Positions 1,078-4,807 of a stretch of DNA of 5,901 nt are shown here, piece by piece (position 1 is the first letter of the stretch; every line of letters begins with the position of its first letter). Source of the DNA: Thermoplasmata archaeon (GTDB lineage Archaea; Thermoplasmatota; Thermoplasmata; Halarchaeoplasmatales; Halarchaeoplasmataceae); the NCBI GenBank assembly GCA_019594195.1, contig JAFDTP010000098.1:1-5901 (forward strand), in the 5' to 3' direction. Position numbers and translations under genes: made by a program. The notes beneath the pieces are model-generated. The model did no database searches. It saw nothing but the letters and a program-made list of their open reading frames with translations, and was not told the DNA's origin.

Positions 1078-1089
1078 TTTTATATATAA
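1078..1089 (+). promoter_or_regulatory. ileS: Strong box A promoter of the ileS leader transcript
   Basis: TTTTATATATAA contains the near-consensus archaeal TATA element TTTATATA at 1079-1086, centred near 1082.5. The usual spacing of about 26 bases puts the transcription start at about 1108-1110. That is the first ATG of the short Ile-rich reading frame (1108), a leaderless arrangement. The promoter begins 12 bases after the dph5 stop, so ileS need not depend on dph5 transcription. Confidence 0.75.
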
Positions 1090-1107: not shown

Positions 1108-1158
1108 ATGATGAGCTGGGCAATAAATATCGAGGAGATAATCATCATCATCGGATGA
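1108..1158 (+). CDS. Candidate isoleucine-rich leader peptide of ileS
   Basis: A 16-codon frame reads MMSWAINIEEIIIIIG and ends at TGA 1156-1158. Seven codons are isoleucine: ATA at 1123, ATC at 1129, then ATA ATC ATC ATC ATC at 1138-1152. It starts at tandem ATGs (1108 and 1111). No Shine-Dalgarno precedes it, but a strong box A about 26 bases upstream predicts a leaderless mRNA starting at this ATG. It lies 52 bases upstream of the gene for isoleucyl-tRNA synthetase. The early codons cover the 5' arm (1115-1121) of a long-range hairpin, and the last codons overlap the arms of two other hairpins. By analogy with bacterial amino-acid operon leader peptides, ribosome stalling when charged tRNA-Ile is scarce would change leader folding and raise ileS expression. 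That mechanism is inference. The alternative is a chance (ATC)4 repeat, which would not explain the two further Ile codons, the start position or the neighbouring gene. The peptide itself probably has no other function. Confidence 0.72.
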   Translation: MMSWAINIEEIIIIIG

Positions 1159-1176
1159 TTGATTCATCCGCCCAGC
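1115..1176 (+). promoter_or_regulatory. ileS: Structured ileS leader RNA (candidate attenuator)
   Basis: GCTGGGC (1115-1121) pairs perfectly with GCCCAGC (1170-1176), six of the seven pairs being G-C. Nested inside, GGATGA (1153-1158) pairs with TCATCC (1164-1169) directly beside the closing stem. If the closing stem is open, C1152-G1170 extends this inner hairpin to 7 bp. A competing hairpin, AATCATC (1140-1146) with GATGATT (1154-1160), uses the Ile codons and excludes the inner hairpin. A ribosome paused at the Ile codons at 1123 or 1129 would cover the 5' arm of the closing stem. Pairings were read by eye and no energies were computed. Confidence 0.55.
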
Positions 1177-1214
1177 CCGTAATTTTTTGTTGTTTTTGGA
1201 GGTTTTCGGAATGA
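1155..1214 (+). CDS. Possible second short upstream frame bridging leader ORF and ileS
   Basis: An ATG at 1155 overlaps the leader-peptide stop (ATGA, 1155-1158) and opens a 19-codon frame, MIDSSAQPVIFCCFWRFSE. Its TGA (1212-1214) in turn overlaps the ileS ATG (ATGA, 1211-1214). This would allow coupled termination and reinitiation from the leader peptide through to ileS. No Shine-Dalgarno is well placed: GAGGAG at 1132-1137 is 17 bases away. The Cys/Phe/Trp content comes from the T-rich tract and does not look selected as protein. It may be fortuitous. Confidence 0.2.
   Translation: MIDSSAQPVIFCCFWRFSE
1183..1197 (+). terminator. T-tracts downstream of the leader hairpin, possible conditional terminator
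   Basis: T6 (1183-1188) and T5 (1193-1197) follow the leader hairpin, whose 3' arm ends at 1176, and precede the ileS Shine-Dalgarno. Archaeal RNA polymerase can terminate at T-rich tracts, and hairpins are not strictly needed. The tract could thus be an attenuation point, or simply an unstructured ribosome landing region. The 6-base gap between stem and tract is longer than in a classical bacterial terminator. Confidence 0.3.
1198..1203 (+). promoter_or_regulatory. ileS: Shine-Dalgarno of ileS
   Basis: GGAGGT is a near-perfect anti-16S match placed 7 bases before the ATG at 1211. It rules out the in-frame TTG at 1187 as the start, because the Shine-Dalgarno would then lie inside the gene. 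Confidence 0.85.
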
Positions 1215-4200
1215 GTGAAAAAAATGACCAATTTGAACAAATCGACAAAGAAACTCCACTACCGGAAAAAGAAGAAGAAGTGATACAGTTCTGGCAGGAG
1301 AACGACATCCCTAAAAGAAGCAGGGAGAGAGAAAGAGATAAAAAATTCGGTTTTACAGAAGGTCCTCCTACCGCGAACGGTCTACCTCACATCGGACACG
1401 TATTAACCCGTATAGTCAAGGATACTTTCCTTCGCTATAAAACGATGGACGGATACCAGATAGTTCCCAACATCGCCGGATGGGACACACATGGATTGCC
1501 TGTAGAGATAGAGGTTGAAAAAAAACTAGGTATCGACTCTAAGGCCGAAATAGAAGAATACGGGCTGGAAAAGTTCAACGATATGTGTAAAGAGAGCGTT
1601 TTCGAGTATGAGAAAGAATGGAGAGAGATGAGTGAAAGACTCGGTTTTTGGATAGATTATGATAACGCCTACATCACCATGGACGATGACTATATAGAGA
1701 GCGTCTGGTGGAGTTTAAAGCAGCATTGGGATAACGATCTACTCGAAAAGGGGCACATGGTTACGCCGTACTGCCCTCGATGTGAAACCCCGCTGTCTAG
1801 CCACGAGGTGGCTCAGGGATACGAACAAACAGAAGATCCTTCGATATATATAAGATTCAAGGTGAAAGAAGAAGATGCTTATTTTTTAGCCTGGACAACC
1901 ACTCCTTGGACATTGATCTCTAATCTTTTACTTGTAGTTGGAGAAGATATAGACTACGCTCTTGTCGAATATGAGGGCGATGAGTATTATCTGGCCGAAA
2001 AACTCGTAGATGAGATCTTTGACGGTGCAGATATACTGAAAACGATGAAAGGTAAAGAGCTATTGGGTAAAGATTATGAGCCGATCTTTGAATATGTAGA
2101 TTCAGAAAGTAAAAGTCATTATGTAACTTCCGCTGATTTTGTCAGCCTTGAAGAAGGTACGGGAATTGTACACGCAGCACCGGCCTTCGGGGAGGAAGAT
2201 TACGATCTATGTAAGGAAGAAGGGGTTTCTTTAGTCAACCCCGTGAATGAAAGCGGAGAATTCACCGAAGAAATACCAGATTACGAAGGGGTGTTTGTAA
2301 AAGAGGCCGATGAGGACATAATGAGAAGATTGGAAGAAAGAGGTGACCTTCTAGGAAGAGGTACTGTAACCCACACGTATCCTTTCTGCTGGAGATGTGA
2401 ATCTCCTTTATTGTATTATGCCTTGGAAAGCTGGTTTATTAGGACTTCACAGAAAAAGCAAAAACTGATAGATAACAACGAAAAGGTCTTCTGGAAACCT
2501 GAACATTTGAAGCACGGGAGATTCGGTAATTTCCTTGAAGAACTGAAAGATTGGTCTTTGAGCAGGAATAGATTTTGGGGAACACCTTTACCGATATGGA
2601 TCTGTGGAAACGATCACCAGTATTGTGTAGGAAGTATAGAGGAACTCAAAGAAATGTCTACGGAACCTTTACCGGAAGATTTCGAGCTACATAGACCTTA
2701 CGTAGATAGGGTCCGTTTAAACTGCCCAAATTGTGATGATGAGATGGAAAGGGTGAAGTACGTGATTGACTGCTGGTATGACAGTGGAAGCGCCCCTTTT
2801 GCGCAGTTCCATTACCCCTTCGAAAATGAAGAGAAATTTGAAGAAGCGTTCCCGATAGATTTCATCACTGAAGCTCTAGATCAGACCAGAGGGTGGTTTT
2901 ACAGCCTCCTTTCTATAAGTTCGCTCCTTTATGATGAGCCAGCCTACGAAAGCTGCTTGACACTCGGCTTGGTTTTAGATGAAGACGGAGAGAAGATGAG
3001 TAAGAGCAAAGGGAATGTCGTGGGTCCTGACGAGATATTCGAGGACATAGGTTCTGATCCAACTAGACTGACTTTCTTAGAGACGCCTGTCTGGAAATCA
3101 TCCCGTTTCAGCGAAGAGATGGCTCGGGAGAAGATAAACAAAACCATAAACACTCTACTCAATGTGGTATCTTTCTTCACCAACAACGCAAATATCGACG
3201 GATTTGAACCTGAAGAGGATTATCAAGTCAACGATAAGATAGACGAGTGGTTACTCTCTAGAGTCAATACATTAACTCAAGTCGTCAGAGATAGTATGGA
3301 AAGATTAGAGGCACACAGGGCAGTCAGGGAGATCGAGAGATTCATAGACGAACTTTCCAACTGGTATCTCAGGAGAAGCAGGCGAAGATTTTGGGAAGGT
3401 GATAAAAATGAAAAAGAGAGCGCTTACAATACGCTATATGAAGTTCTAGAAAAATTGACCCGTTTGATGGCTCCCTTCATCCCTTTCACGGCCGAAAGGA
3501 TATATAGAAAAACAGTACTACCAATAGAGTACGGAGAGGAATCCGTACACTTACTCGATTATCCTGTTGTTGAAGATAAAAAGATAGATCATGAACTAGA
3601 AGAACTGATGGGACAAGTTATCGACATAGCTGAACTAGGTAGGAACGCAAGGCAGAAGCGCGATATAAAACTCAGACAACCTTTGAAAAAAGCAGTAGTT
3701 ATAAAGAGCGACGAAGGAACGCTAGCAGCTGTTGATTTATTTGAAAGGATACTAAAAGATGAATTGAATGTTAAAGAACTCAGGTCTGCAAAAAGGGAGG
3801 ATGAGTTGATGACTTACAGGGTCGACCCAAATTATTCCTCCTTAGGTCCTAAATTCAAAAATGAAGCAGAAAGGGTCGCGGAGGTTATCGAAAAAGCGGA
3901 CTCGGAGAATGTCGTCAAAAGTCTAGATAAAGATGATACGGTAGAGATAGAAGGCTATGAGCTAGAAAGAGAAGACCTAGAGATATCTGAGGTTGTAAAA
4001 CAAGGCTATGAAGTGAGTGAAGAAAAAGGCTTGAAAGTTTATGTTGAAGTTGAGTTAGATGATAAACTTCGTACGGAGGGTTTGGTCAGAGACGTGGTCA
4101 GAAGGATACAGACCATGCGTAAGGACCTAGAGCTAGGATACACTCAAAAGATAAAGACCTATTACGATGGTGACGAGATATTGGATGAAGCTGTGAACGA

Positions 4201-4363
4201 GATGGAGGATTACATCAAGAAAGAAACCTTATCTCGGGAGCTAAAAAAGGTAAGTGAAGGTCATGAAGATGGTTTTGAAAAAGATTGGTCTATAGATGGA
4301 AATAACATAAAGATATGGGTGGATCCTATAGAAGATTCTGAAGACCAACCCTTAAATATTTAG
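1211..4363 (+). CDS. ileS: Isoleucyl-tRNA synthetase (archaeal/eukaryotic type)
   Basis: This cytoplasmic class Ia aminoacyl-tRNA synthetase joins isoleucine to tRNA-Ile using ATP. It has 1050 aa, typical of full-length archaeal IleRS. The catalytic core shows the HIGH signature PHIGH at 59-63, preceded by GPPTANGL, and KMSKS at 595-599. The CP1 editing domain, which hydrolyses mischarged Val-tRNA-Ile, is recognisable from WTTTPWTL at 228-235 and GTGIVHAAPAFGEEDY at 316-331, whose Asp330 sits at the family's conserved editing Asp. Cys pairs suggest zinc knuckles: C188/C191 with C393/C396, and C465 or C472 with C505/C508. DCWYDSGSAPFAQ at 520-532 and DQTRGWFY at 557-564 are catalytic-domain landmarks. 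From about 645 a helical anticodon-binding domain follows, with the long C-terminal extension of this subfamily ending in a likely beta-rich part. The ATG at 1211 is chosen from the GGAGGT site. The gene is preceded by an Ile-rich leader frame and ends with three stops in tandem (TAG TAA TAA, 4361-4369). No frameshift or missing catalytic motif was seen. Confidence 0.98.
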   Translation: MSEKNDQFEQIDKETPLPEKEEEVIQFWQENDIPKRSRERERDKKFGFTEGPPTANGLPHIGHVLTRIVKDTFLRYKTMDGYQIVPNIAGWDTHGLPVEIEVEKKLGIDSKAEIEEYGLEKFNDMCKESVFEYEKEWREMSERLGFWIDYDNAYITMDDDYIESVWWSLKQHWDNDLLEKGHMVTPYCPRCETPLSSHEVAQGYEQTEDPSIYIRFKVKEEDAYFLAWTTTPWTLISNLLLVVGEDIDYALVEYEGDEYYLAEKLVDEIFDGADILKTMKGKELLGKDYEPIFEYVDSESKSHYVTSADFVSLEEGTGIVHAAPAFGEEDYDLCKEEGVSLVNPVNESGEFTEEIPDYEGVFVKEADEDIMRRLEERGDLLGRGTVTHTYPFCWRCESPLLYYALESWFIRTSQKKQKLIDNNEKVFWKPEHLKHGRFGNFLEELKDWSLSRNRFWGTPLPIWICGNDHQYCVGSIEELKEMSTEPLPEDFELHRPYVDRVRLNCPNCDDEMERVKYVIDCWYDSGSAPFAQFHYPFENEEKFEEAFPIDFITEALDQTRGWFYSLLSISSLLYDEPAYESCLTLGLVLDEDGEKMSKSKGNVVGPDEIFEDIGSDPTRLTFLETPVWKSSRFSEEMAREKINKTINTLLNVVSFFTNNANIDGFEPEEDYQVNDKIDEWLLSRVNTLTQVVRDSMERLEAHRAVREIERFIDELSNWYLRRSRRRFWEGDKNEKESAYNTLYEVLEKLTRLMAPFIPFTAERIYRKTVLPIEYGEESVHLLDYPVVEDKKIDHELEELMGQVIDIAELGRNARQKRDIKLRQPLKKAVVIKSDEGTLAAVDLFERILKDELNVKELRSAKREDELMTYRVDPNYSSLGPKFKNEAERVAEVIEKADSENVVKSLDKDDTVEIEGYELEREDLEISEVVKQGYEVSEEKGLKVYVEVELDDKLRTEGLVRDVVRRIQTMRKDLELGYTQKIKTYYDGDEILDEAVNEMEDYIKKETLSRELKKVSEGHEDGFEKDWSIDGNNIKIWVDPIEDSEDQPLNI
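4352..4359 (+). promoter_or_regulatory. Possible box A for the 141-aa gene, inside the end of ileS
   Basis: TTAAATAT is centred near 4355.5, about 26.5 bases before the ATG at 4382. That spacing matches the two other promoters in the window. It lies within the last ileS codons, so the downstream gene could have an own, nearly leaderless transcript besides read-through from ileS. The match is moderate. Confidence 0.3.
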
Positions 4364-4381: not shown

Positions 4382-4807
4382 ATGGCAAGAACGGAAGAAA
4401 AAGAGATGGAAGTGACAAAACATAACAGTTTGATCCGATTTGAAGAGGGGATCGAATATAAAGATCTAGCAAGTATATTTCCTGATCTTTACCGGTTATT
4501 CATGGAATTAGGAGAACAATATCCCGATGAAAGCAAGAAAGAAGTTACTGAGATGCTCATAAGACAGAACTTGAAGGACCTACAAAACAATCGTAAACCT
4601 ACTGGACACAACAGAGAAGCGCGTTATCGTATGATATTCCCGATAGATAGAGAGCATGTAGAATTTTACCTTTATCCAAGGATAGACGAAGAAGAATCAG
4701 AGATAGAGGAGATCACTTCTGAGATATCAAATTTCTTGGAAGAACACGGTCTAAAGCATGAGATCATCTGGGATGACATGGAATATCTGATGGAAGAAAA
4801 GGATTGA
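4382..4807 (+). CDS. Acidic 141-aa protein of unknown function
   Basis: I do not recognise this protein. It has 141 aa, no cysteine, and no signal peptide or membrane segment, so it is probably a soluble cytoplasmic protein. Residues about 26-70 look helical (KDLASIFPDLYRLFMELG, then EVTEMLIRQNLKDL). Residues 81-101 suggest two strands (RYRMIFPID and HVEFYLYPRI). Residues 103-122 form a strongly acidic helix, and 126-133 (HEIIWDDM) may be a third strand. This beta-beta-alpha-beta order resembles half of a ferredoxin-like fold, which is inference only. The start at 4382 follows a GGTGA site. It sits 18 bases after the ileS stop, so co-transcription with ileS is likely, and it ends 8 bases before the convergent helicase gene. 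Codon use and acidity match the neighbours, and there are no signs of transfer. A role linked to tRNA or translation cannot be claimed from position alone. Confidence 0.82.
   Translation: MARTEEKEMEVTKHNSLIRFEEGIEYKDLASIFPDLYRLFMELGEQYPDESKKEVTEMLIRQNLKDLQNNRKPTGHNREARYRMIFPIDREHVEFYLYPRIDEEESEIEEITSEISNFLEEHGLKHEIIWDDMEYLMEEKD

Follow-up and report, generated by a model that had tools for sequence, protein, structure and literature searches.

An isoleucine-rich leader frame before the ileS gene of a Thermoplasmatota archaeon, with the anatomy of a candidate ribosome-sensed attenuator

Upstream of an archaeal gene for isoleucyl-tRNA synthetase (ileS) lies a short, isoleucine-rich reading frame, set behind a TATA-like box and followed by a GC-rich stem and a U-rich tract. 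At slightly better than even confidence, we read this arrangement as what would be a ribosome-mediated transcription attenuator sensing charged tRNA-Ile before ileS, and we consider it likely that the gene is under ribosome-sensed control of one kind or the other, exerted on transcription or on translation. Its anatomy probably matches a ribosome-mediated attenuator, carried by an archaeal mRNA that is itself probably leaderless, and the mechanism is one that we infer from sequence and folding. The features below lie in a window of 5,901 nt, which is the whole stretch of DNA analysed.

268 to 1065: dph5, from ATG 268 to a stop ending at 1065, in the same window as ileS
1079..1086, plus strand: TATA-like box TTTATATA, from which the leader and ileS are predicted to be transcribed
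1108..1158, plus strand: leader frame MMSWAINIEEIIIIIG and its stop, read directly, its translation predicted
1115..1121, plus strand: arm 1, GCTGGGC, of the terminator-like stem, in leader codons 3-5 and a perfect complement of 1170-1176
1140..1146, plus strand: arm 2, AATCATC, built of Ile codons, a perfect 7-mer inverted repeat with 1154-1160
1152..1170, plus strand: small hairpin CGGATGA-TTGAT-TCATCCG over the leader stop codon, a perfect 7-mer inverted repeat
1170..1176, plus strand: arm 4, GCCCAGC, 3' arm of the terminator-like stem, after the leader stop
1183..1197, plus strand: U-rich tract TTTTTTGTTGTTTTT, predicted premature-termination site
1198..1202, plus strand: Shine-Dalgarno-like GGAGG of ileS, 8 nt before its ATG, read directly
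1211..4363, plus strand: ileS, isoleucyl-tRNA synthetase (NCBIfam equivalog TIGR00392)
4382-4807, plus strand: 141-aa frame after ileS, starting at ATG 4382
Minus strand of the window: piece of an XPD/Rad3-type helicase

The synthetase scored 930.8 bits against TIGR00392 (cut-off 621.4), and its first Met was invariant in 29 of 29 aligned proteins, namely the window's own and 28 out of 120 listed homologues, the start sites of the homologues being predicted, too. The 141-aa frame that follows it gave no Pfam or NCBIfam match at E 0.001. Among the matches listed, the nearest named IleRS relatives were ‘Thermoplasmata archaeon’ (86%) and ‘Candidatus Natronoplasma’ (76%), and we therefore take the host to be a Thermoplasmatota archaeon near Natronoplasma.

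The leader frame runs from ATG 1108 to a TGA at 1156-1158, and seven of its 16 codons encode Ile (codons 6, 8 and 11-15; five ATC and two ATA), codons 11-15 reading ATA ATC ATC ATC ATC; 52 nt (1159-1210) then separate its stop from the ileS ATG at 1211. The original prediction had described a 16-codon frame with seven Ile codons, five of them consecutive, 52 bases before ileS, and this is exact in the sequence. The run of cognate codons that marks the 5' leader of an attenuator is present here (7 of 16 codons for Ile, five in a row, before ileS). When the 145-nt intergenic region was shuffled with its dinucleotides preserved, 10 of 40,000 sequences with ATG starts, and 15 of 40,000 with ATG, GTG or TTG starts, contained an open reading frame with at least five consecutive Ile; at least seven Ile in 25 codons or fewer were seen in 85 and 214 of 40,000, respectively. 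Markov sequences trained on the window, with all three start codons, produced a run of at least five in 0 of 40,000 cases at order 2 and 0 of 40,000 at order 3, and at least seven Ile in 10 and 6 of 40,000, all of these rates referring to a single window, of which many were possibly read, and to thresholds set after the sequence had been seen. Across the six frames of the window, the leader holds the sole run of at least four Ile. The Ile codons of ileS itself favour ATA (ATA 40, ATC 17, ATT 4), so four ATC in a row would not be expected from its usage; the run could have originated, for example, as a tandem repeat of ATC.

The TATA-like box starts 29 nt upstream of the leader ATG and 132 nt from the ileS start, is nearly palindromic, and is followed by no other listed TATA-like octamer on the plus strand before ileS. 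Such an octamer stands 28-32 nt upstream of only 4 of the 205 ATGs in the window (116 plus strand, 89 minus strand), by a list of octamers picked after the sequence was seen; these are 1108 and 1111, the adjacent leader ATGs, 4382, which opens the 141-aa frame, and 121 on the minus strand. The frame from the last of these runs off the window with 40 codons open (1-121), its octamer lying at 151-144 of the minus strand, 30 nt from the ATG, and this spacing is a hint that the host's transcripts commonly have a short 5' UTR or none. As the spacing at the leader start is that of two predicted gene starts in the window, the leader is predicted to be leaderless or nearly so. A scan for sigma-70 promoters returned one site, on the minus strand, with 0.7 expected.

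Downstream, 13 of the 15 positions of the tract at 1183-1197 are T, the sole site on either strand of the window with at least 12 T in 15, and the 7-bp, GC-rich stem 1115-1121:1170-1176, which encloses a loop of 48 nt, ends 6 nt before it. A perfect 7-bp stem so placed was recovered in 2 of 20,000 shuffles when at least six GC pairs were required, in 139 when at least five were, and in 563 when at least four were. All 35 tracts of five or more T in the window were tested, and only the tract at 1183 is preceded at 0-9 nt by a 7-bp stem with at least five GC pairs. The interval 1108-1182 contains five perfect 7-mer complementary pairs, where the shuffle mean is 0.5 and five were reached in 132 of 20,000 shuffles. 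A scan for bacterial-style terminators found none, the leader stem having its 48-nt loop and 6-nt spacer.

The stability of the fold depended on the segment taken. The segment 1108-1180 was matched in stability by 0 of 200 shuffles, by 17 of 1000 in a second test, and by 11 of 2000 sequences in which the peptide was kept and codons were drawn by ileS usage. Other segments stood out less, with 3 of 200 shuffles as stable for 1108-1197 and 17 of 200 for 1139-1180, and 1108-1210 (15 of 200), 1124-1180 (50 of 200) and 1108-1165 (154 of 200) did not surpass shuffled sequence. In sliding windows, 13 of 972 had a z below the leader's −2.68, each z being noisy as it came from 25 shuffles. The minus strand over the leader (1113-1185) had the lowest energy of the 972 windows, −28.1 kcal/mol, whereas the plus-strand window at 1105 was weaker, at −23.9, and third lowest; given this greater stability of the minus-strand fold, a role at the DNA level is possible. 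In the 1108-1210 fold, the U-tract pairs weakly with the GGAGG (−28.5 vs. −26.0 without 1198-1210).

In free RNA, arms 1 and 4 paired with probability 1.0 once position 1176 was out. About 16 nt of RNA are held inside the polymerase, which would therefore stand near 1192, inside the U-tract, when this happens. We then modelled a ribosome as a mask from the P site minus 12 to the A site plus 14, with only the downstream RNA folded. With the A site at codons 4-10, arm 1 was covered wholly or partly, and the small hairpin at 1152-1170 (−9.7 kcal/mol, probability 0.35 in the full free RNA) formed at 0.12-0.59 for codons 4-5 and 0.88-0.98 for codons 6-10; with the A site at codon 11, a remnant of 6 bp (−8.5) was all that persisted, and from codon 12 to codon 17 no stable structure formed. 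Over the Ile run itself (codons 11-15), the mask leaves the 5' arm uncovered, and our model assumes that the arms would be unable to close around a ribosome in that position. An antiterminator pairing of arm 2 with the repeat that follows it (1140-1146:1154-1160) never exceeded a probability of 0.35, which would leave the part of antiterminator to the ribosome.

Put together as a transcription attenuator, these elements would work as follows. Transcription would probably start at the leader ATG or only a few nt from it, as the TATA spacing suggests, and the leader would be translated leaderless. With ample Ile-tRNA, translation would run to the stop at 1156-1158 and the ribosome would come off, 1115-1121 would pair with 1170-1176, and the arms, paired while RNA polymerase crosses the U-rich tract at 1183-1197, would probably bring about termination before ileS. 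With Ile-tRNA scarce, the ribosome would be held up somewhere from codon 6 to codon 15, where it would cover or separate the arms, and the stem, so kept open, would let the polymerase read on into ileS; the switch would be the ribosome itself and not a strong antiterminator hairpin. Archaeal RNA polymerase can terminate at U-tracts without a hairpin, and for this reason the hairpin may not be the regulated element. Attenuation had been put forward in the original prediction on the strength of the codon run, and that reading gains an archaeal host, a TATA-like box that places the start at the leader, and a GC-rich stem next to the one tract of the window so rich in T, but is backed neither by a dominant antiterminator (arm 2 pairing staying at or below 0.35) nor by a terminator of the bacterial style.

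Comparison between genomes drew on distant sequences. A contig search with a single-sequence query yielded ten loci, with bacterial titles and a best identity of 51%, and of the searches of viral contigs, one gave no locus and another seven, at 26-56% identity. Upstream regions were scanned at 15 of these 17 loci, L009 and L012 being omitted as the match lay at a contig end, and no comparable Ile-rich leader was found upstream of the 15, all of which are too distant to test conservation; upstream of L013 there are nested frames holding three consecutive Ile, which do not make a comparable leader. For a 69-aa antisense frame lying over the leader, the protein database held no candidate sharing enough words.

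That the small frame is incidental, an accidental ATC repeat in the 5' leader with the stem and U-tract serving as a structural element or partial terminator and no sensing of Ile, seems to us unlikely, though there are points in its favour: the leader is known from a single locus, four tandem ATC could stem from repeat slippage, many windows were possibly read, and the thresholds were chosen with the sequence already in view. It is opposed by the rarity of each element (10-15 of 40,000 for the Ile run, 4 of 205 ATGs for the TATA spacing, 2 of 20,000 for a stem with at least six GC pairs) and by their all lying at the gene of the cognate synthetase. A leader that senses Ile-tRNA and acts on translation, where a ribosome occupying or stalled on the leaderless frame would alter access to the ileS start, re-initiation there or mRNA stability with no premature termination, would share the leader evidence, both the Ile run and the TATA spacing, and could draw on the gene's own GGAGG, which is weakly paired with the U-tract in the 1108-1210 fold. 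The pairing that would hide the GGAGG is slight (−28.5 vs. −26.0), however, this reading gives no account of the U-tract or the GC stem, and 52 nt separate stop from start, whilst a review (PMC12548453) puts coupling in E. coli and Haloferax at little or none once the distance exceeds 30 nt; we rate control at translation as rather improbable.

Still less weight falls on the idea that the region acts without a ribosome, either as a DNA operator, its inverted repeats binding a regulator as double-stranded DNA, or through an antisense RNA from the minus strand, the Ile codons being a by-product of GATGAT-type repeats. The five perfect 7-mer pairs (132 of 20,000 shuffles), the minus strand with the lowest energy of 972 windows (−28.1) and the nearly palindromic TATA-like box all speak for it; it leaves the start codon 29 nt from that box, the reading frame and the U-tract without explanation, and the repeats lie downstream of the predicted transcription start, where operators are less usual. 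A T-box riboswitch, which would read uncharged tRNA-Ile directly, is strongly disfavoured, to the point of being barely conceivable. T-boxes do precede ileS in several Actinobacteria, as the excerpted source has it (PMC1262725), but no Rfam match in the window reached its gathering score, which agrees with the earlier remark that T-boxes are not to be expected in archaea. In 1060-1220, a cut-off of E 10 let through 11 Rfam matches, and no T-box was among them. Weak Rfam matches to C/D-box RNAs over the leader, at E of at least 1.1 and far below gathering, were also set aside; they probably arise because ATGATGA at 1108-1114 of the plus strand resembles a C box.

The transcription attenuator thus remains the reading that we prefer, and to the broader proposition behind it we give roughly even credence, namely that archaea use leader-peptide attenuation, with the codons of a leaderless Ile frame holding a terminator arm, the ribosome as antiterminator and a synthetase gene controlled at a U-tract; this would be the first ribosome-sensed transcription attenuator of the domain. 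If true, amino-acid supply would be sensed in archaea by ribosome stalling, and transcription and translation would have to be coupled in the host lineage. In archaea, both intrinsic poly-U termination and termination dependent on aCPSF1/FttA are established, and a coupled ribosome has been suggested to exclude FttA, in the excerpted accounts (PMC8116511, PMC11616081); the ileS leader, if it works as suggested, would offer a compact construct for testing coupling and FttA exclusion.

As of 2021, no mechanism of transcription attenuation or antitermination was known in archaea, in the words of an excerpted study (PMC8448881). The promoter-proximal control of elongation described there in Saccharolobus resembles our proposal in being archaeal, post-initiation and near the promoter, but it differs in that the excerpted account has no leader peptide or amino-acid signal and reports no uridine-stretch bias (PMC8448881). 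In 2019, the RNA chaperone TRAM0076 was proposed to aid transcription in Methanococcus by unfolding structures in 5' UTRs, with the antitermination assay done in E. coli (PMC6705878, as excerpted), an action that, unlike the one suggested for the ileS leader, is not leader-peptide control. In a Ribo-seq paper on Methanosarcina mazei, 10% of the small ORFs that lacked annotation fall in 5' UTRs and are regarded as possible uORFs; the terms ‘attenuation’ and ‘tRNA synthetase’ are absent from its main text. Among the literature matches listed, judged by titles and abstract openings and lying mostly outside the subscription literature, there was no report of leader-peptide attenuation in archaea.

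The other close likenesses are bacterial. The T-box before ileS in Actinobacteria has the same target gene and the same signal, the charging of tRNA-Ile (PMC1262725), but a T-box reads the tRNA directly and without translation, whilst the ileS leader has no Rfam T-box match. Leaders of the ilv type (ilvB of Actinobacteria, PMC1262725; ilvBNC of Corynebacterium, PMC11857589) combine branched-chain codons with a downstream terminator, as the ileS leader is predicted to do, yet control biosynthesis genes in bacteria rather than ileS in an archaeon; in Streptomyces ilvB, mutation of leader codons was without effect (PMC1262725), which counsels caution for the ileS leader. Attenuators of synthetase genes themselves are described for pheST of gamma-proteobacteria and predicted for leuS and trpS of Streptomyces (PMC1262725), and with these the ileS leader shares a short frame rich in cognate codons before the synthetase gene, then a stem and a U-rich tract. 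It departs from them in its archaeal host and termination machinery, its predicted leaderless start at a TATA box, its 48-nt loop, the placing of one arm inside the leader codons, and its weak antiterminator.
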